Shown: piece by piece, positions 39,474 through 49,617 of the stretch
Layout: each line of letters opens with the position of its first letter
Position numbering within the stretch: position 1 is the stretch's first letter
DNA from: Bacteroidaceae bacterium
Lineage (GTDB): Bacteria; Bacteroidota; Bacteroidia; Bacteroidales; Bacteroidaceae
Assembly: GCA_017442855.1 (NCBI GenBank)
Contig: JAFSPM010000026.1
Span: 1-64,000, forward strand
DNA length: 64,000 nucleotides
Direction of reading: 5' to 3'
Made by a program: the position numbers and the translations under genes
The notes under the pieces: generated by a model
Seen by the model: only the letters and a program-made list of their open reading frames with translations
Told to the model about the DNA's origin: nothing
The model's database searches: none

Positions 39474-39504
39474 TTCCGTATTGTTTAACCTAATTTTAAA
39501 TGAT

Positions 39505-40542
39505 ATGGAACATTTTTATTTTTATCGGTCCGATGCCGCTATTTCAGCTGGCATCGTTGACTACTTCGAGTTTGCCTTTCAGGAGGCGAAACGTAAGGAG
39601 GATTGTGGCAAGTACAGTTCGGCAAGTCAACTGCGCATTGCTCTCCAGCACCTCCGCCACTTTCTCAAAGGTCGTTCCCTCATGCTGGCCGACCTGCATC
39701 CCACGTTGGTAGCCGACTTCTGCGATTACCTGGTGAGCCTCCGTCTCAGTGGCGGCACAGTGGGCCTATACATCAACGCCTTGCGAGGTGTGTATCATCG
39801 TGCTGTGAAAGAACACTTGGTGATGGACAGCCATCCGTTTAGCAACTTGCGTTTCAGTAAGCCATCCACCTCTCAACCTGTTCTTTCAGAGAAGGATATG
39901 TCGCGTTTTATCACCCTATCTGTGAAACCCTGTAGTTGGCAATGGCTCACCCACCGATTCTGCAGCTGTAGCTATTACCTCTGTGGCATGCCTCCCGTCG
40001 ATCTCATTCGCCTGCGTTGGTCACAGATTGACTTGGTGCACAACCGACTTATCTACAACCGTCAGAAGACAGGTCATGGAGCAATGCTCAAACTCAGCGG
40101 AGAAGCCAAATTCATTTTGTTGGAATTCAGGCAGATGTATGAGCATAGACACCAGTTGAAACAGCAAGGGTGGGGACATTGTAAATGCATGGACACCTGG
40201 ATGAATGGCTTTGTGTTTCCTTTTCTTGGCACAGTCAATAGAGTTGAGTCCTATCATCAGTTGAAGAATACTGAGCGAATCATGAATCATTGCTTGAAGA
40301 AGCTGGGTGCCAAGATTAACTTGCCCCATCTTTCTCTCTATGCCTTCCGCCGTGCTTGGGCAACCACCGCTTATATCGACTACAAAGCCGATATGAGCGA
40401 CATATCACATGGTTTAGGTCATGCCAATGTGCGCACCACCTATTTATATATACAGCAACTTGACCACACAAGTTTCTTCCATCTGCAAGATAAAATGATG
40501 AGAGGTCTTCGTAAGAGAGTGGAGCAATTACAAACGAAATAA
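39505..40542 (+). CDS. Tyrosine recombinase at the head of the fimbrial locus
   Basis: A 345-residue phage-integrase-family protein. It has an N-terminal SAM-like DNA-binding domain (about 25-110) and a catalytic domain with box II FRRAWATTAY, ISHGLGHANVRTTYLYIQ (catalytic His and Tyr) and a basic tail. The segment that usually holds the first catalytic Arg reads YYLCGMPPVDLIRLRW, where Bacteroidota relatives often have LRGM. The HxxRH box reads YAFRR, so two catalytic positions look changed. It lies just before a gap with inverted recombinase-like sites and a fimbrial operon, fitting a local DNA invertase. Confidence 0.85.
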   Translation: MEHFYFYRSDAAISAGIVDYFEFAFQEAKRKEDCGKYSSASQLRIALQHLRHFLKGRSLMLADLHPTLVADFCDYLVSLRLSGGTVGLYINALRGVYHRAVKEHLVMDSHPFSNLRFSKPSTSQPVLSEKDMSRFITLSVKPCSWQWLTHRFCSCSYYLCGMPPVDLIRLRWSQIDLVHNRLIYNRQKTGHGAMLKLSGEAKFILLEFRQMYEHRHQLKQQGWGHCKCMDTWMNGFVFPFLGTVNRVESYHQLKNTERIMNHCLKKLGAKINLPHLSLYAFRRAWATTAYIDYKADMSDISHGLGHANVRTTYLYIQQLDHTSFFHLQDKMMRGLRKRVEQLQTK

Positions 40543-40543
40543 A

Positions 40544-40575
40544 AGACATCCCCTTTTTCCTATAGGGGGATGTCT
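40544..40575 (-). terminator. Hairpin with left recombination-like core
   Basis: AGACATCCCC (40544-40553) and GGGGGATGTCT (40565-40575) enclose TTTTTCCTATA. On the minus strand the hairpin continues into TTTATTTCG, so it can stop leftward transcripts. The same block has the arm-spacer-arm form of a tyrosine-recombinase core site, and its spacer recurs inverted at 40703-40715. Confidence 0.6.
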
Positions 40576-40604
40576 AATTTGTGCAAATTAAGACATTTTT
40601 CTTT
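40570..40604 (+). terminator. Terminator of the recombinase gene
   Basis: GATGTCTAATTTG-TG-CAAATTAAGACAT is a near-perfect hairpin followed directly by TTTTCTTT (plus strand). Its left arm ATGTCT is shared with the hairpin at 40544-40575, so only one can form at a time. Confidence 0.6.
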
Positions 40605-40614
40605 AAATCTCAAA
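40584..40614 (-). promoter_or_regulatory. Leftward promoter inside the invertible segment
   Basis: On the minus strand TTTG (40614-40611), a 19-bp spacer and TTAATTTG (40591-40584) form a near-consensus promoter, with one mismatch in the -7 box. It faces the recombinase gene. No comparable promoter faces the fimbrial operon in the present orientation. Confidence 0.5.
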
Positions 40615-40695
40615 ACAAAAAAGGACAATTTTCGTCTAAATAACAAAAAAAATCGGCTTTTTTCTTAAAGAATAGGAAAAATAGACAATAATTAT

Positions 40696-40719
40696 GTCTC
40701 CTTATAGGAAAAAGGAGAC
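40696..40719. repeat. Hairpin with right recombination-like core
   Basis: GTCTCCTT (40696-40703) and AAGGAGAC (40712-40719) flank ATAGGAAA. The block read on the minus strand repeats the 13-bp core of the left site at 40552-40564. A partial extra core (ATAGGAAAAA) occurs at 40672-40681. Confidence 0.65.
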
Positions 40720-40767
40720 TAATATTCTTATTAGGTTGATGGTTTAGTTGAAAGTAACGTAAGAATA

Positions 40768-41841
40768 ATGCCATTGATGAAGCAATCATTAAGATACAGA
40801 TTACACATGCATCTGACAGTACTGATGTTTCTTATCACGTCAGCACTGCCTTTGCATATATATGCTGCAGAACCCCTGGGGCAGCTGCATGTAAGTCGTG
40901 TATCTACCTATACCAAAGACGGTCAGTCGCATCTGTATATGCACTTTGTCTATAGTACAGATATCTTGAACAATGACCAGACCCTCTATGTAAGTCCCAT
41001 ACTTAAAGATGGCGTCCACAGCTACCAGCTTCCAGCTATGGTGATTGATAGTCAGAGTAAGAAGGTCCGCTTCCGTGACCAGGATGTCATTGTGGTGACA
41101 GATGAGCCTTACGGCAATTTCATTTTCGAAATTGACTACATCATCAACTACGAACCCTGGATGGATGAGGCCTCCCTCTGTTTTGAGAGCAAGGAGTTTA
41201 AGCAGGGCGAGTTCCAGAAGGAATACCTGGATTGTGTAGTAGATCATCTGAAAGAGTATGTTGACAAGCTAAAGAATGCTCCACTCAATCCTTATAAGGT
41301 GGCGCTTCGCACCAACCTCCTGTTGCCTTTGCTCAACATAGGTATGGAGGTTCCCATTGGCAACCGCTGGTCGGTAGGTGTAGATTGGTACAACTTCTGG
41401 CTGTTCCGTAACGATGACCATAAGAACAGCATTCAGCTGCAGTTCCTCTCCGTCGAAGGCCGCTACTGGCTGGGCAAGAAGCACAGGGCAGGAGAAGAAA
41501 ACCGCAAGTACCGACTACAAGGCCACTCGGTGGGTGCTTTCGTAGCCACAGGCAAGTACGACTTCGAGCATAACTACAAGGGCGACCAAGGTGAGTTCAT
41601 TGCAGGTGGTTTCGACTATCTCTATGCAATGCCTATTTGCAGAGGCAGGATGCACCTCGAGTTCTCTCTGGCAGTAGGCTTCCTGCGTGCCTCTGCCTAC
41701 TCCTACCATGTTTACCAGCCAGGCGGCAAGGGCTATTACGACGACAAGAACTTCCGCGATGTGACACGCTATGTGGGTCCCCTCAAGGCTTCTGTGGCCT
41801 TGGTGGTACCATTACGTTATTCAAAAAAAACAAATAGATGA
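40768..41841 (+). CDS. DUF3575-type protein of the fimbrial operon
   Basis: A 357-residue exported protein with signal peptide ending near ALPLHIYAAEP. The N-terminal half is a beta-rich domain. The C-terminal half (ALRTNLLLPLLNIGMEVPIGNRWSVGVDWYNFWL..., about 180-357) matches DUF3575, an outer-membrane-barrel-like domain. Proteins of this type commonly precede Mfa/Fim-type fimbrial genes in Bacteroidota and may be assembly or anchoring factors. An alternative ATG lies at 40777. The last four bases overlap the next gene (ATGA), showing coupling. Confidence 0.8.
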   Translation: MPLMKQSLRYRLHMHLTVLMFLITSALPLHIYAAEPLGQLHVSRVSTYTKDGQSHLYMHFVYSTDILNNDQTLYVSPILKDGVHSYQLPAMVIDSQSKKVRFRDQDVIVVTDEPYGNFIFEIDYIINYEPWMDEASLCFESKEFKQGEFQKEYLDCVVDHLKEYVDKLKNAPLNPYKVALRTNLLLPLLNIGMEVPIGNRWSVGVDWYNFWLFRNDDHKNSIQLQFLSVEGRYWLGKKHRAGEENRKYRLQGHSVGAFVATGKYDFEHNYKGDQGEFIAGGFDYLYAMPICRGRMHLEFSLAVGFLRASAYSYHVYQPGGKGYYDDKNFRDVTRYVGPLKASVALVVPLRYSKKTNR

Positions 41842-42857
41842 AGAAGGTATTAATATATATATGGTGTATCACGCTGACAATGCTTGCCAGTTGCGACCGT
41901 ATGCCGCTCTACGAGATGGAGAAGAGGGTAGATTTGGAGCTGGAGTTGAATCTGGATCTCGATCTTGACATCGCTGTCGATGTAGATGTCGATGTGGCAG
42001 TGGAGACCATGATAGAAATACCCGAAATGATGCAGGTAGGTTTCTATACGCCAGACGGCGAGGTGTTGCGTAATACCCAGTTTGTTGGACCTGATGGTGG
42101 CGCCATTACTACCCCTCCCGGCACCTATCGCATGGTCATCTATTCATTTGGAAATGAATACACCCAGGTGCGAGGCGAGGGTAGTGTCAACACCCTGGAG
42201 GCCTTTACCAGCGATATCACGGCCACCAAGATGTCTGTTTTGCAGAGAGCCCTGCAGGCATCCAAGGCCAACACCCGTGCTGATGGCGATGCCGATACGC
42301 GCGACGAGGATGAGCAGCCCACAGGTCCTATCATCTATGCGCCCGACCACCTGCTGGTGACGGTGCAAGAGGTGACCATCCCCGAGTTCACCCAGGAGAG
42401 GCAGACCATCACCATTAACTCTACGGTGCAGACCATCTGCGAAACCTACACCTTTGAGGTGCATACCCTGATAGGTGCTGAGTATATAGAGAGTTGCGAG
42501 GCTTTTGTCACCAACCAGGCAAGAACCAGTTTCTTTGGACGAGGTGAAATCAGTCAAGAGCCAGCCACCATCTGTTTCCCAGTAGGTGTGAATCGCAGAA
42601 CAGGTTTCCTTTACACCACGTTCAATACTTTTGGCAAGCTGCCTGGTGAGAGTAAGGCCTACATACACTTTGTTATTCGTGATACAAGTGGCCAAGAGTA
42701 TTATTTCAGTACTGAAATCACCGATCAGTTTGAGAAACCTGACCATCATATCGTGATTGAAGAACCCGTTGAGGTGCCCGAGCCAGAGACGACTGGTGGT
42801 ATAGCCCCCACCGTAGAAGAATGGAATGAAGAGAACCATAATGTTGACATTGGCTAA
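41838..42857 (+). CDS. DUF5119-type fimbrial lipoprotein
   Basis: A 339-residue lipoprotein (lipobox MLASC, Cys19). Right after the signal comes a striking alternating acidic/hydrophobic stretch (residues 31-57, pattern DLELEL..DLDLDID..VDVDVDV). A beta-rich domain then follows, typical of DUF5119 proteins, and an acidic P-E-rich tail. By position between the DUF3575 gene and the fimbrillin it is probably a fimbrial anchor or accessory subunit (Mfa2/FimB-like). Translation is coupled to the preceding gene. Confidence 0.75.
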   Translation: MKKVLIYIWCITLTMLASCDRMPLYEMEKRVDLELELNLDLDLDIAVDVDVDVAVETMIEIPEMMQVGFYTPDGEVLRNTQFVGPDGGAITTPPGTYRMVIYSFGNEYTQVRGEGSVNTLEAFTSDITATKMSVLQRALQASKANTRADGDADTRDEDEQPTGPIIYAPDHLLVTVQEVTIPEFTQERQTITINSTVQTICETYTFEVHTLIGAEYIESCEAFVTNQARTSFFGRGEISQEPATICFPVGVNRRTGFLYTTFNTFGKLPGESKAYIHFVIRDTSGQEYYFSTEITDQFEKPDHHIVIEEPVEVPEPETTGGIAPTVEEWNEENHNVDIG

Positions 42858-42913: not shown

Positions 42914-42964
42914 AAAAATAACGAGATATTAAAATTAATATTAACAATTTAAAAATTTGTGTTT

Positions 42965-43993
42965 ATGAAAAAGTATTTATTTTTAGTTTCTGTAGCTGCT
43001 CTCACATTCTCGAGTTGCTCTGATCAGTCCACCGAGTTCGTTGGTGACAGCGTTGCTAAGCAAGCTCGTGAAATTTCGTTCAGCCCTGTGGCAAGGCCAA
43101 CTACTCGTACAGCTGCTGATACATATCAGTATGCTATTGATGGTCCTACATTCCCAACCGACCTAAACATGTATGTAGCTGCTTATCAAGTTGCGCCTAC
43201 TGCTACTAACTATTTCGCTGGTACGCAGTTTACTTACAGCGGTTCATCCAATATTTGGAATGGCGCTACAAAGCGCTACTGGCCATTGTCTCCTGCTTAC
43301 ATTAATTTCTTAGCTTATGCCAATGTAACAGGAACTGCTAATTTCAATGCTACAAATTATGCATCAGGCGCAGTAATTTCTCAGTCAGACAACTCTTCTG
43401 CTCAGACTGACCTGATGTATGCCATTGGTAATGGTGCAGTAACCAAGTCTGGTAACGACCTGACTTTCCCTGCTGCTAACGTTCCAATGGAATTCAAGCA
43501 CGCTCAGGGATGGATTGATTTCTATGTTAAAGCTTATTCTGATGTGGAAACTGCCATTACTGTTAACAGCATTACGCTGAAGGGCGCTAAGTATGCAGGT
43601 ACTTACACTATCACACACACTAACTATAATGCCGATAGTGATCAAGAAGTATCTGGTGCATGGTCTGGTCTTGCCGCTGCTAAGGATGCAGCAGTTCCGG
43701 GTTGGAATGCAACTGCTTTGACGACAAGCCTTGTAGAAGTTAGCCATGGTTTGATGGTTTGCCCTGATGACGATGATGCTACCAACGACTGGACAAGCTT
43801 TGTTATCAACTACACAGTAGATAGTAAGACTTATGACTTTGAATACCTAGCTCCTGCTGCTCCGGGCGCAAATGTTGATCAGGCTAAGCACTATGTTTAC
43901 AACATTACCTTCAAACTGCACGAGATTCTCGTAGCAGCAACAGTCGCAGACTGGACTGATGTTACTGCTACTAATGTAACTGTTGATGAGTAA
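42965..43993 (+). CDS. Fimbrillin-family major subunit (lipoprotein)
   Basis: A 342-residue lipoprotein (lipobox LTFSSC, Cys19 of the ATG version). Fimbrillin hallmarks are the early ISFSPVARPTTRT with arginine cleavage candidates, the YWPLSPAYINFLAYANV segment, PMEFKHAQGWIDFYVKAYSD, and a final beta strand ending YVYNITFKLHEILVAATVADW. Type V pilins of this fold polymerise by strand exchange after Arg-specific cleavage. The ATG at 42965 is preferred to an upstream GTG at 42959. It is the likely shaft pilin of this locus. Confidence 0.85.
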   Translation: MKKYLFLVSVAALTFSSCSDQSTEFVGDSVAKQAREISFSPVARPTTRTAADTYQYAIDGPTFPTDLNMYVAAYQVAPTATNYFAGTQFTYSGSSNIWNGATKRYWPLSPAYINFLAYANVTGTANFNATNYASGAVISQSDNSSAQTDLMYAIGNGAVTKSGNDLTFPAANVPMEFKHAQGWIDFYVKAYSDVETAITVNSITLKGAKYAGTYTITHTNYNADSDQEVSGAWSGLAAAKDAAVPGWNATALTTSLVEVSHGLMVCPDDDDATNDWTSFVINYTVDSKTYDFEYLAPAAPGANVDQAKHYVYNITFKLHEILVAATVADWTDVTATNVTVDE

Positions 43994-44032: not shown

Positions 44033-44096
44033 AAGCCAGCAGGGGCTCGATACCCCTGCTGGTAACAAAGCCTCGAAAGAGGCATACGCTCTATGA
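44033..44096 (+). repeat. Structured direct repeat DR1
   Basis: CCAGCAGGGG-loop-CCCCTGCTGG is followed by TAACAAA and GCCTC-GAAA-GAGGC, a stem closed by a GNRA tetraloop. The same arrangement recurs at 44331-44400. It lies 40 bp after the fimbrillin stop. Confidence 0.8.
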
Positions 44097-44330: not shown

Positions 44331-44400
44331 AGCCAGCAGGGTCTGAACCCCCTGCTGGTAACAAAGCCTCGAAAGAGGCAAAGAGAATAGCTCTTTGAAA
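44331..44400 (+). repeat. Structured direct repeat DR2
   Basis: A second copy of the DR1 arrangement: CCAGCAGGG...CCCTGCTGG, TAACAAA and GCCTCGAAAGAGGC, here followed by AAAGAG-5 nt-CTCTTT. The hairpin stems are conserved while loop bases differ, suggesting a conserved structure. Confidence 0.8.
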
Positions 44401-44481: not shown

Positions 44482-44724
44482 ATGACAGCGTTAGAATTAA
44501 ATGCGGAATTGTATCGGGCTATGGCCGAAATTGCCGATGATGAAACCTTGCTTAACAAAGTGCTGACTTATGTCAAGAAACTGGCTGTAAAGAAGGAAGA
44601 GGGCGTAACTGCTTCTCCAGAATTGCAAGCTGATATAGAAAAAGCTCGACAAGAGTTAGAAGAAGGTAAAACCTTAGGTTTCAACAGTGCTAACGAAGCA
44701 CAAAAGTGGATGGAGGCTATATGA
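44482..44724 (+). CDS. Antitoxin of a YoeB-type toxin-antitoxin pair
   Basis: An 80-residue acidic, helical protein (MTALELNAELYRAMAEIADDETLLNKVLTYVKKL). It resembles small antitoxins paired with RelE/YoeB toxins in Bacteroidota, rather than the classic YefM fold. Its stop overlaps the toxin start (ATGA). A TATCTTCG box at 44441-44448 may be its promoter. Expected to neutralise the toxin and autoregulate the pair; the assignment rests mainly on the neighbour. Confidence 0.75.
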   Translation: MTALELNAELYRAMAEIADDETLLNKVLTYVKKLAVKKEEGVTASPELQADIEKARQELEEGKTLGFNSANEAQKWMEAI

Positions 44725-44996
44725 GCTATCGCATAGAGTTTTCTCAGAAAGCCCAGAAAGTGATAAAGAAATGGAAAAAGTCAAATCCTGTTTCTTTCAA
44801 GAAGCTTTATGACCTTTTGCCCGAATTGGAGGAACATCCTCGTACAGGTTCTGCTCATCCTGAACCATTAGTAGGTGGTAAGAATATCACTTACTCAAGA
44901 CGTTTGTCTGGTCGTGATCGTGTTATTTATGATGTTTATGATGACCGTGTTGTAGTGCTTGTTATTAGTGTAGAAGGACATTACGAAGACAAATAA
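44721..44996 (+). CDS. Txe/YoeB-family mRNA interferase toxin
   Basis: A 91-residue RelE-superfamily toxin. The YoeB landmarks are present: EFSQKAQKVIKKWKKSNP, GSAHPEPLVGGKN, SRRLSGRDRVIYDVYDD and the terminal GHYEDK with the conserved His-Tyr. Such toxins cut mRNA at the ribosome. The ATG at 44721, overlapping the antitoxin stop by four bases, is chosen over one 15 bp upstream. The position between fimbrial genes is unusual. Confidence 0.88.
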   Translation: MSYRIEFSQKAQKVIKKWKKSNPVSFKKLYDLLPELEEHPRTGSAHPEPLVGGKNITYSRRLSGRDRVIYDVYDDRVVVLVISVEGHYEDK

Positions 44997-45086: not shown

Positions 45087-46127
45087 ATGAATTGGATGAA
45101 ACGACATTTTAAATATATTAATATGGTGTGGGCTAGCATTCTGCTCTTAGGCAGCTGCACCAGCGAGAGTGGCACGGGTACCCCCGATGTCACCCCAACA
45201 CCTGTAAAGACAGATACACAACACGAAATACAATTACAAGTTACTGATAGAAAAGCGAATACACGTGCTTTGGTTAATAGCGAATCAGACTTGCGCTCAT
45301 CAAACATTCGCATTGATGCCTTTTTTCACAATACTACAACAACATATCTGAACAATAGCAAACTTAAATATGTTACTGATGCGTGGAAATTTGTAGATAA
45401 TGCTAATGCTGATGCTGTTTTAACTTACTATTGGCCTATTGCAGGTTCTGTTCATACGGCTACTGGAGCGAGTTCTCTGGATTTCGCAGGATATTACCCA
45501 TACGATTACACAAATAATAGACCTACTACAAATTCGCATGTGACGCTGGGAACCTATAATACAACAGATGGTATCAATTTTTCCTGTTCTAATTTGCCAC
45601 TTCCTGGAGATCAGGGATCTTTAGACGAATTCTTATATGCTTTTGTTCCTGAACAAACCAGTAATAGTAATTCTGGAACTGTAAATCTTGCCCTTCAGCA
45701 TCCTTTTTCAAAAATAAGTTTCCAAGTATCAAGGGCATATATTAACCTAACCTTAAACAGCGTTACTATCAGTGGTTTTAAAAGATCAGGTAGTTTCAAT
45801 TATAAAAATAATCCTCAATGGCTACCTTCTGGTGATTCATATAATAATTTCACAATGACTGTTTCTAAAAGTTATGGTTCTAGTTATTCTTTCCCAGATG
45901 CGATAGGAGGACCTTATATTGTTATTCCTCAGTCTGCTGATTTGACTTTTACAATTAATGCTACTTGGGCAGGGTGGAGTCCTTCTACTAAAAATATAGA
46001 AATTCCGGTACATGTTGAATGGTTACCCAATACCTCCTATACATACCATTTAGATTTGGATGCGACTAACTTCAGTGTTTCTGTTGAAGCGTGGGGAACG
46101 AATACAGACTATCCTTTAAATTACTAA
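45087..46127 (+). CDS. Fimbrillin-family lipoprotein, minor subunit
   Basis: A 346-residue lipoprotein (lipobox LLLGSC near residue 24). Fimbrillin features are RKANTRALVNSESDLRSSNIRIDAFF near 55-80, LDFAGYYPYDYTNN, LALQHPFSKISFQVSRAYINLTLNSVTISGFKRSGSF and a last strand ending in NTSYTYHLDLDATNFSVSVEAW. It is probably an accessory pilin that links shaft and tip. Its stop lies 5 bp before the adhesin gene. It is more AT-rich than the core genes. Confidence 0.82.
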   Translation: MNWMKRHFKYINMVWASILLLGSCTSESGTGTPDVTPTPVKTDTQHEIQLQVTDRKANTRALVNSESDLRSSNIRIDAFFHNTTTTYLNNSKLKYVTDAWKFVDNANADAVLTYYWPIAGSVHTATGASSLDFAGYYPYDYTNNRPTTNSHVTLGTYNTTDGINFSCSNLPLPGDQGSLDEFLYAFVPEQTSNSNSGTVNLALQHPFSKISFQVSRAYINLTLNSVTISGFKRSGSFNYKNNPQWLPSGDSYNNFTMTVSKSYGSSYSFPDAIGGPYIVIPQSADLTFTINATWAGWSPSTKNIEIPVHVEWLPNTSYTYHLDLDATNFSVSVEAWGTNTDYPLNY

Positions 46128-46132
46128 GACGT

Positions 46133-48994
46133 ATGAAGAAACTAGCAATATTTATTACCATATTAACAACTCTGCTTACTTCTTGTAGCGGCGATGAATT
46201 CATGAGTGGAATTGAAAGTGATTATATCTTTTTCAACGTGGGTCAAAGCGATATAGTTTCTGTATCTGAGGCTGACACTCGAAGTATTGCTATGGATACG
46301 AAAATAGAAACAGAGAAACCTTTTTATCTATCTACAACAGTAGAAAAGGGTATTTACAAGTTGGATTCTGAAAAAGCTTCCACGCGTGGCTCTTTGATAT
46401 CATCACCTGCAAGTCTCAGTCTTGGAGTTTCTGAATTCAGAAGTAATGATGAAGCAGTAACAGCTATGCAAAATCTAAATCCTACATATAGTGCTTCTAC
46501 AACACCTGCATACACCACTAATGTTCCATGGGAAGCTGCAGCCTATGCTGATACTCCTTCAACATACAAATTTTACGCATACTATCCTTATGGTGGAGCA
46601 TCTGATGGCGTTTCGTTGAATAGCGGTAATAAATCCTTGACATATAATGCTACTGGCATCACTGTTGCCAACCAACCAGACTTGATGACAGCTTATGCTG
46701 AATCGTCTTATACCAGAAGTGGTGTAAATTTAGAATTAAAGCATCGCCTTTGTGGCATCCGAATTACGATAGGATCTGCCTGGAGATCGGGATGGCGAAT
46801 AAACTCCATAAGTTTTGGAAATATTGCTTATGCGGGAACGGTGGATATCAATGGCTCTTGGAGTAGTCTCACAACAGGAAATTATTCTGTGACAGGCTTA
46901 ACTGAAGCAGATGCGACGTGTGAAGATGCAGCAGCTTATTTGATGATGATTCCTCAAGATGTAAGTTCTTCTACTATCACTATTGGAGTGACGAACGGTA
47001 GCGATACTGGCTCATTAAATGCTACTCTTTCAGGAACATGGAGAGAAGGGGAAACTGTTACTTATACAGTTACATGGGGTGATGACGATGTGATACTGTC
47101 AGCTTTGTATATGCGGTGGACTCCAACAGATGGCAGTGCGGCTGTTGACGGACCTGTCACACAATATGAATATGGGCAGAGCTTTGGTGTGTTTGCAGTT
47201 GATAACGCTACTAAAAAAGTCGTTTATATAAACCAACCTATGACAGCTGAAACAACGGGTGTATCACCTAATCTTTCGGGATCAAATGCAGTAAAAAGAA
47301 CCTATACTTATTATGTCTATTATCCATATCAAGCGGTAAACCCAACAGCTTATGCTGTAGATCAAACCTTAAGTGATCCTCTCCCTTCGGCCTTTGATTT
47401 TTTCAATTCAAATTACTTTATCACGAATTGGTCTGTGCAAACAGACCAGAACACATACGGACAGGTAGTAAGATCGGATCTGCAAATCGGGAAAGTTAAT
47501 GGCGCCGAAGCCCCTGAAAGGCCTGTAAGGGCAGAGATGAACCATGTGATGGGGTTGGCAAAAGTCATGCTGAAGACCACATCAGAAAGTTCAATAGTCA
47601 GAACTTATACATCAAAGGCAGCACCTCATACTGCATACTCCGAAGAAAGTGGGGCGGAATATCAAAAAACGGCAACATCTGCGTTGGCTGCAGATTCCCC
47701 ACAGAACGCTTTGTATGCGGCCGGAAATCTGTGGCGAGTAGTAAAAGCTACGGGGGAAAGCACTAGCGATGGGACTGTAACTTTAAAGTCTGAGCAGACA
47801 GATCAAGATAAGTGGACTGAGGGTAATATCTCTTTCGACGGTATTGGTTACGGGAAAATCAAAAGTGAAAATGCCACAAGCCAACGGCATTTTGCCTGGG
47901 TAGCGGAATTTTACTACAATGGAACCGGTTCTGACGATATAGGCTATAGTGATGGCGCTTATTATGTACTTGAGGCTCCCTATGAAGGTGACTATAAGTT
48001 GGAAGTTTATGGCGCTCAAGGAGGTGACGGACGCCAATGGAATACATATACTCATGTAAATAATTCCGGTGGCAAAGGTGGCTATTCTTATGGTGTGGTC
48101 AGTTTAAATGCTGGAGATAGACTATATGTTTGTGTCGGAGGACGCGGCAGATGGGCAAAAAGTGTAAAAAATGAGCATGCCCCCGGAGGTTTTAATGGTG
48201 GAGGTTATGGGGGTACTGAGAATGAAGACCACCCGGAAAATGCTGCTGGTGGCGGTGGCGCTACGCATATTGCCACGTCACTTCAGGGAACAGGCGTGTT
48301 GTCAGAATATTCCTCATATCAAGATGACGTGTTGATTGTTGCCGGCGGTGGCGGTGGCGCTTCCGGGTGTTTCCAGAAAAACTGGGCCGAGTATATAGCA
48401 TGGCATCCATATGATAATCTGACAGGCAACCCGACATACGCAGATATTCAAAATGCACATATAGAATATTATTTCAATCAGTTTACGACCCCGGAATTAA
48501 TGACAACTTATTATCAGTATGATTATCGGAATAATTATGTGGGAGGCGAGAGTCCTTATGCTGCAACTTGGGGAGCACTACTTCCTGCCCAGCAAAAGAT
48601 CATCATAGATGAAACTATATATGCATGTTTTGGCGGACAAGGCGGTGGTGGAAATAACCCCGGAACTGCCACTTTCTGGCCAGACAGAGAAAATGGTGAA
48701 AAGGCTGGTAAGAGGGCTGTCGGAGGGCCTGTATCTCCGGATGGGACAGCTTATTTTGGAAGAGGTAAGGATGGTTATGAACCACCAGATCATAGTGGCA
48801 ATGTCGGCGGCACCGGCGGTGGCGGTGGCGGCTGGTATGGCGGATATTATAAGGGAACGATTTCAAACCCTGTGCCGGCAGCAGGCGCTGGTGGTTCTGG
48901 ATATATAAAGAGCACCTTGACTGAATCAGGAGGCACTACTGGAGAACGGGAAGGTCAGGGATTTGCTAGAATTACATACATACCGTTACCGTAA
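46133..48994 (+). CDS. Fimbrillin fused to an ALK-like glycine-rich domain, probable tip adhesin
   Basis: A 953-residue lipoprotein (lipobox LLTSC near residue 18). Two fimbrillin-like regions (about 60-325 and 330-600) each contain a YYVYYPY/FYAYYPYGG segment. A C-terminal glycine-rich domain (about 610-950) follows: EVYGAQGGDG, GGKGGYSYGVVSLNAGDRLYV, GGGGATHIATS, VLIVAGGGGGASG, GGQGGGG, GGTGGGGGGWYGG and AGGSGYIKST. This order matches the glycine-rich domain of ALK/LTK receptors (Pfam Gly_rich). The ATG at 46133 starts the signal peptide. Position and layout suggest a tip adhesin; the ligand is unknown. Confidence 0.82.
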   Translation: MKKLAIFITILTTLLTSCSGDEFMSGIESDYIFFNVGQSDIVSVSEADTRSIAMDTKIETEKPFYLSTTVEKGIYKLDSEKASTRGSLISSPASLSLGVSEFRSNDEAVTAMQNLNPTYSASTTPAYTTNVPWEAAAYADTPSTYKFYAYYPYGGASDGVSLNSGNKSLTYNATGITVANQPDLMTAYAESSYTRSGVNLELKHRLCGIRITIGSAWRSGWRINSISFGNIAYAGTVDINGSWSSLTTGNYSVTGLTEADATCEDAAAYLMMIPQDVSSSTITIGVTNGSDTGSLNATLSGTWREGETVTYTVTWGDDDVILSALYMRWTPTDGSAAVDGPVTQYEYGQSFGVFAVDNATKKVVYINQPMTAETTGVSPNLSGSNAVKRTYTYYVYYPYQAVNPTAYAVDQTLSDPLPSAFDFFNSNYFITNWSVQTDQNTYGQVVRSDLQIGKVNGAEAPERPVRAEMNHVMGLAKVMLKTTSESSIVRTYTSKAAPHTAYSEESGAEYQKTATSALAADSPQNALYAAGNLWRVVKATGESTSDGTVTLKSEQTDQDKWTEGNISFDGIGYGKIKSENATSQRHFAWVAEFYYNGTGSDDIGYSDGAYYVLEAPYEGDYKLEVYGAQGGDGRQWNTYTHVNNSGGKGGYSYGVVSLNAGDRLYVCVGGRGRWAKSVKNEHAPGGFNGGGYGGTENEDHPENAAGGGGATHIATSLQGTGVLSEYSSYQDDVLIVAGGGGGASGCFQKNWAEYIAWHPYDNLTGNPTYADIQNAHIEYYFNQFTTPELMTTYYQYDYRNNYVGGESPYAATWGALLPAQQKIIIDETIYACFGGQGGGGNNPGTATFWPDRENGEKAGKRAVGGPVSPDGTAYFGRGKDGYEPPDHSGNVGGTGGGGGGWYGGYYKGTISNPVPAAGAGGSGYIKSTLTESGGTTGEREGQGFARITYIPLP

Positions 48995-49325
48995 GAAAGA
49001 AACAGAATTGGCATAATAGGTCATCGCTCTATAACTTACCGCTATACAAACATCTGCAGGATGTGATTAAGTTGATTAAAGACGTTTGTGTAACGAACAT
49101 ACATGTTTTAGTAACAATATAAAATCGTTGCTTGGCAACTGGGACAAATGCCGTTAATATTCTTCGTGAGAAGAGAAGTCCCAAAATTTTGAATTTCATC
49201 AGGCTACTCTCCATGATTCTATGGGTTAGCCTCACTATTTATTCGCATTGCCTGTGACCTGTAAATAGGTCGGCTGCTAATGGGAGCGCCCATAACAGTA
49301 GCTCATTCCTCGTGATGAAGCGTGC
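48995..49325. other. Gene-free interval after the adhesin gene
   Basis: No convincing gene. Several small hairpins are visible: GACCT-AGGTC (49256-49271), ATGGG-AGCG-CCCAT (49279-49292) and GGCTA...TAGCC (49202-49231). A 68-codon minus-strand frame (49029-49235) lacks protein-like character. Confidence 0.5.
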
Positions 49326-49361
49326 AGGAAAAAAGGGGGTGCCTTCGTAAAGGCTCCCCTT
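49326..49361 (-). terminator. Terminator-like hairpin behind the recombinase fragment
   Basis: AAGGGG-GT-GCCTT-CGTA-AAGGC-T-CCCCTT (49333-49361) is a strong hairpin. On the minus strand it is followed by a T-run (CCCCCTTTTTTCC). It can end transcripts of the fragment at 49444-49617 or, on the plus strand, of the fimbrial operon. Confidence 0.65.
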
Positions 49362-49443
49362 AACTTTTGGACAGTTTAATCACTTAAAGATGTTGCCTGC
49401 ACAATAAAGAAAAGTGCAATAAAAGATTTGGCAATTTGATGGA

Positions 49444-49617
49444 TTATTTACTTTGCAATTGTTCTACTCGCTTACGAAGACCTCTCATCATTTTATCATG
49501 CAGATGAAAGAAACTTGTGTGGTCAAGTTGTTGTATATAGTTCTCGGACGGATGATAGCAAATATCGTGACCAGTATCAGCTGCTACTCTTGATATTGAT
49601 CCTGATAAGACTGCCAT
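49444..49617 (-). pseudogene. Truncated tyrosine recombinase tail, inverted copy
   Basis: The minus strand encodes 57 residues from ATG 49617. The last 32 or so (YIQQLDHTSFFHLHDKMMRG..., ending EQLQSK) repeat the C-terminus of the recombinase at 39505-40542, with the catalytic Tyr kept and a GH before it. DNA identity over 49444-49539 versus 40447-40542 is high, near nine in ten bases by eye. Everything upstream of the box around the catalytic His is missing. It is a remnant of a second recombinase copy in opposite orientation at the far end of the fimbrial locus. Confidence 0.85.

Follow-up and report, generated by a model that had tools for sequence, protein, structure and literature searches.

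A candidate invertible promoter, assembled in the OFF orientation, between a divergent tyrosine recombinase gene and a fimbrial operon of a Bacteroidaceae bacterium

In the 64,000-nt stretch of Bacteroidaceae DNA analysed here (hereafter the window), a tyrosine recombinase gene is followed by two hairpin sites in opposite orientation and then by a fimbrial operon, which raises the question of whether the short segment between the sites is a promoter that can be flipped. A preliminary description had proposed such a phase-variable promoter in its OFF orientation, and we consider this reading, an inverton controlling the fimbrial operon and assembled OFF, highly probable. The host assembly comprises 49 contigs (2.76 Mb, 80% complete), and the features on which the argument draws are the following.

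39481 to 40542, plus strand: tyrosine recombinase gene, likely an invertase (TTG start at 39481 or ATG at 39502; PF13102 47.4 bits, PF00589 38.4 bits, both above cut-off)
40544 to 40575, no strand assigned: putative left recombination site, a hairpin dyad around the core at 40552-40564
40565 to 40702, no strand assigned: putative invertible segment of 138 bp, bounded by the two cores
40584 to 40614, minus strand: promoter match TTTG-19-TTAATTTG, one mismatch, facing the recombinase gene (OFF)
40693 to 40722, no strand assigned: putative right recombination site, a hairpin dyad around the core at 40703-40715
40768 to 41841, plus strand: first gene of the operon, DUF3575 (PF12099 65.4 bits)
41838 to 42857, plus strand: DUF5119 lipoprotein-like gene (PF17145 80.4 bits)
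42959 to 43993, plus strand: fimbrillin-like gene, Mfa_like_1 (PF13149 76.4 bits)
45087 to 46127, plus strand: open frame within the operon without a Pfam match at E 0.001, possibly a further subunit
46091 to 48994, plus strand: fimbrillin-like protein with a C-terminal glycine-rich domain (PF13149 86.2 bits, PF12810 80.6 bits)

The 13-bp core CCTTTTTCCTATA is present as two identical, opposed copies, at 40552-40564 (plus) and 40703-40715 (minus), exactly where the preliminary description had placed them, and a mismatch-free search of the 49 contigs returned no further exact copy in the 2.76-Mb assembly; a control search with the core letters read backwards likewise gave one forward and one reverse match. 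The described flanking by recombinase gene (left) and fimbrial operon (right) also holds, with the recombinase stop codon ending at 40542, 9 nt from the left core, and 52 nt lying between the right core and the first fimbrial ATG (40768). Each site has the arm-spacer-arm form attributed to it, folding as a DNA hairpin of -10.1 (left) or -7.3 kcal/mol (right) that was equalled by 0 of 200 shuffles in either case, with outer arms that differ between the two. The inverted repeat by itself is weak and only moderately unusual, given that 2000 shuffles of the 225-bp gap equalled it four times and that three other repeat pairs in the 64-kb window, 60-400 nt apart, reach an equal or higher score. Under a stricter definition of dyad pairs (6-nt arms, 6-13-nt spacer, at least 12 nt common in inverted orientation, 50-500 nt apart), the window contains this pair only, and 60 block-shuffled windows contained none. 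The core had also been called new: a 22-nt degenerate pattern around it was absent from all others of the 157 genus genomes and matched no viral contig; the search for the bare 13-mer covered its own genome. A second repeat pair is formed by a 10-nt extra piece of the core (ATAGGAAAAA) at 40672-40681, within the segment and ahead of the right site.

Between the cores, the leftward promoter element matches the consensus printed in PMC8748976 with one mismatch, as had been described, and it lies 13 nt inside a site and points outward. It is not unusual for a segment of these 138 bp to contain such a one-mismatch motif, which appeared in 359 of 2000 shuffles when both strands were counted and in 321 when the minus strand was counted by itself. 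Less common is an outward match at a distance of 8-20 nt from a site (3% of 200 shuffles). No rightward match with at most one mismatch was found in 40540-40768, and none with at most two mismatches in 40681-40790; a rightward two-mismatch match with a 22-nt spacer lies inside the segment, at 40578-40611. After in silico inversion, 84 nt separate the end of the -7 box from the ATG at 40768, which corresponds to a leader RNA of about 77 nt with an assumed start about 7 nt past the box, close to the leader of about 80 nt that had been predicted.

Downstream of the sites, the genes constitute the set of a type V (Mfa-like) pilus operon, identified from the genes alone, with PF12099, PF17145 and PF13149 (twice) all above cut-off. 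The product of 46091-48994 is possibly the tip subunit. Among 14 control genomes, a DUF3575 match was obtained in one, Bacteroides ihuae. Two further elements lie among the fimbrial genes, namely a YoeB-like toxin gene at 44706-44996 on the plus strand (PF06769 40.2 bits) and a perfect 32-nt direct repeat (44053-44084 and 44349-44380) that separates two operon genes.

A second switch of like layout occupies about 98.0-99.3 kb of the same contig. Its recombinase aligns with that of the window at 31% identity and is followed by inverted repeats of 32 nt, 88% complementary and 125 nt apart, which share with the window sites CTCC/GGAG arms around an A/T-rich centre. Its operon starts at L026:3506 with a protein that matches DUF3868 slightly below cut-off, and further on encodes a relative of the window DUF3575 protein and an Mfa-like protein. 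The promoter match of this second switch (TTAG-20-TAAATTTG, one mismatch) lies 12 nt from the repeat and faces the operon, whereas that of the window faces the recombinase gene, and hence the two switches appear to have been assembled ON and OFF, respectively. Homology between the inner segments of the two loci was considered and rejected, since their alignment was no better than that of shuffles in either orientation; as the segments are not detectably alike, the opposite orientation of the two switches is read from the promoter matches alone. In the leader of the second switch, between site and operon, an extra hairpin with 15-nt arms (87% complementary) occurs at L026:3445-3475.

Similar arrangements recur across the genus. 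A three-row recombinase profile (E <= 1e-25) matched in 127 of 157 genus genomes, and we examined the 30 loci returned for the best recombinase matches, which include the second locus of this genome, for an inverted-repeat pair starting between 60 nt upstream and 250 nt downstream of the end of the recombinase frame. Such repeats lie beside the recombinase stop in 25 of these best 30 loci, the exceptions being L069, L073, L074, L076 and L077. Approaching from the target side, we read up to 3.6 kb upstream of the 40 best-scoring (hence not random) DUF3575 matches, four of which had less than 1.8 kb available at contig ends: a same-strand recombinase was found upstream in 13 of these best 40 regions, with repeats beside its stop in seven of the 13. 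Across the 32 switches obtained in these two ways (25 plus 7 loci), 20 have a promoter match that points outward and lies at a distance of 8-20 nt from a repeat, compared to 0.44 expected from shuffles, and 12 have none so placed. The window promoter, 13 nt from its site and directed towards the recombinase gene, fits this placing. The direction of the 20 matches is towards the recombinase (OFF) in 18 cases and away from it (ON) in two, an excess that agrees with the 4 of 96 cases given as predominantly ON in passages of PMC8748976. Spacing between the repeats is 256-316 nt in 31 of the 32 switches and 125 nt in the second locus of this genome, next to the 138 bp of the window segment.

Fimbrial genes are known to follow 15 of the switches (L052-L059 and the seven DUF3575 regions), and only four of these carry the promoter match, one ON (L052) and three OFF (L057, L082 and L087). 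The other 16 of the 20 promoter-bearing switches come from the 17 remaining loci, among which the target was examined for L060 only, and support for the promoter placing is thus drawn mostly from loci outside these 15. The recombinases L053-L060 form one tree group (support 100/100). Six of these eight precede a DUF3575 operon, L056 (whose listed frames of at least 180 aa include no DUF3575) precedes an Mfa-like gene and L060 precedes a leucine-rich-repeat protein, so that seven of the eight closest recombinases outside this genome have fimbrial targets.

Taken together, the recurrence of the layout in the same assembly and in genus loci, along with a promoter placed as in 20 of 32 related switches, supports an invertible, phase-variable promoter in its OFF orientation, as originally proposed. 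The sites, recombinase gene, promoter match and operon are present in the DNA; from them we infer inversion, its catalysis by this recombinase at these sites, and expression in the ON state. Most likely, the tyrosine recombinase encoded beside the segment flips the 138 bp through strand exchange within the identical core. When OFF, the promoter would face the recombinase gene, and the DUF3575/DUF5119/Mfa-like operon itself lacks a good promoter match; when ON, the promoter would point at the operon, giving a leader of about 77-84 nt. Type V pilus-like fimbriae would then be phase-variable.

The alternative that survives best is a locked or decaying inverton, i.e. a former phase switch that has lost inversion and left the operon either fixed OFF or driven otherwise, which we hold to be unlikely. 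The unlike outer arms of the two sites would fit such decay, as would the very long branch of the window recombinase in the tree (4.03). The place of this recombinase and its paralogue in the tree is unsure because of long branches. Two residues point the same way in an alignment of 31 recombinases (the window and 30 relatives): the position before the box-I GM is Cys in the window (Arg in 21, Gln in eight and Cys in two of the 31), and Arg284 stands where the other 30 carry His. However, the recombinase frame is intact, Arg187, Lys189, Arg283, His307 and Tyr316 are invariant across this alignment, and both sites have the same core. The missing box-I Arg was also considered as proof of a dead enzyme and rejected as such, since all eight L053-L060 recombinases carry Gln there; IntDOT is a comparable case. 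Within the alignment, Gln at this position is thus common to the whole of a mostly fimbria-linked group, and Cys is shared by the window recombinase and L052.

An inverted, truncated copy of the recombinase 3' end is found beyond the operon (49444-49539, minus strand, 91% over 96 nt), and the operon is accordingly framed by inverted copies of this 3' stretch. The protein match of this remnant extends to 49596 and includes no intact gene. While a truncated copy could itself be taken as a sign of decay, the differences between the remnant and the recombinase 3' end are mostly silent (six of eight codons; P = 0.0007 against 17.9% of single changes being silent, and 0.004 against 25%), which suggests selection on the recombinase protein, at least formerly. 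A second inverton next to the remnant was considered as well and rejected, as no repeat pair was detected in 48995-49480 at the setting used.

Much less probable is that both hairpins are ordinary transcription terminators that share letters by chance and take no part in recombination. The left hairpin would indeed be strong as minus-strand RNA (-16.5 kcal/mol) and is followed on that strand by TTTTATTT, but the right one has no outward T run on the plus strand and is located upstream of the operon, and an inverted 13-bp core shared beside a recombinase gene is the very layout that recurs in relatives. Within the preferred reading of an invertible promoter, a tentative and rather doubtful refinement, computed for this locus only, would have the flip exchange hairpins as well as promoter, so that one recombination event would move the promoter and break a terminator. 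In the OFF state, the left hairpin could halt the leftward transcript and so keep it from entering the recombinase gene in antisense; in the inverted form, the hairpin that the exchanged arms leave to the fimbrial leader would be weak (-3.7). Among the 32 relatives, only L087 comes close to this contrast (-16.1 vs -6.0), and the means (-6.4 vs -9.6) follow the opposite trend; the hairpin swap was hence rejected as a general mechanism, and would be a local refinement at most rather than a feature of the family.

The least credible alternative is that the sites are attachment-site remnants of an integrated element with the recombinase as its integrase: tyrosine recombinases do include integrases, but matches to the NCBIfam XerC, XerD and integron integrase models are weak and far below cut-off (40 bits against 335, 35.9 against 329.6 and 29 against 265), no named integrase family is reached at its cut-off, the sites are inverted and only 138 bp apart, and a recombinase with inverted repeats lies ahead of fimbrial genes in other genomes too.

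Close relatives of the window recombinase are scarce. At E <= 1e-40, a search of 158 genus genomes returned the recombinase itself alone, and at 1e-22 a search of 399 family genomes returned six others at 28-32% identity; a PDB sequence search gave no match. Scans of the genome contigs with the recombinase and the DUF3575 protein produced three and 16 pattern matches, respectively, none of them upheld by tblastn. At the DNA level, the locus was recovered across 99 genus genomes from its own genome and, as 25-46-nt pieces only, from three others. The locus would bring a divergent recombinase, and with it a divergent type of site, into the set of switches by which fimbriae of Bacteroidales are turned on and off. 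With one switch apparently assembled OFF and another ON, the genome offers a pair open to experiment: is each flipped independently of the other, and does each recombinase act on the sites of the other? More broadly, wherever the motif is recognisable (20 of 32 switches here), ON and OFF might be read from assemblies by where the promoter lies with respect to the sites.

Invertible fimbrial promoters are familiar from Escherichia coli, where fimS is flipped by the tyrosine recombinases FimB and FimE. By this general mechanism, fimS would work similarly to the window switch, with an unrelated pilus type and promoter. Nearer at hand, the L053-L060 loci resemble the window in having a recombinase, repeats 9-43 nt past its stop and then DUF3575 (six of eight) or Mfa-like (one of eight) genes, and differ from it in sites mostly of the TTACTnCGTAAGTAAC type, 276-312 nt between repeats and 24% recombinase identity (one aligned). 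A phase-variable Bacteroides fragilis locus for a fimbria-related outer-surface protein, described in a passage of PMC12632263 that cites Weinacht et al. 2004, is alike by its description in tyrosine recombinase, DNA inversion and fimbrial target. The preliminary description was also right that invertible promoters beside recombinases are known in Bacteroidota: passages of PMC8748976 place such promoters immediately downstream of the invertase gene, and according to those of PMC11892184, three inverton groups have fimbrillin genes among the genes enriched downstream of them. As characterized in these passages, Bacteroidales invertons with an adjacent invertase share with the window a short inverted-repeat segment directly after the invertase gene, an internal promoter matching TTTG / TANNTTTG and surface-gene targets. 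Overall, the switch is probably of this known kind, and unlike the invertons described there, the window locus carries a divergent recombinase and site, which appear to be what is new here.
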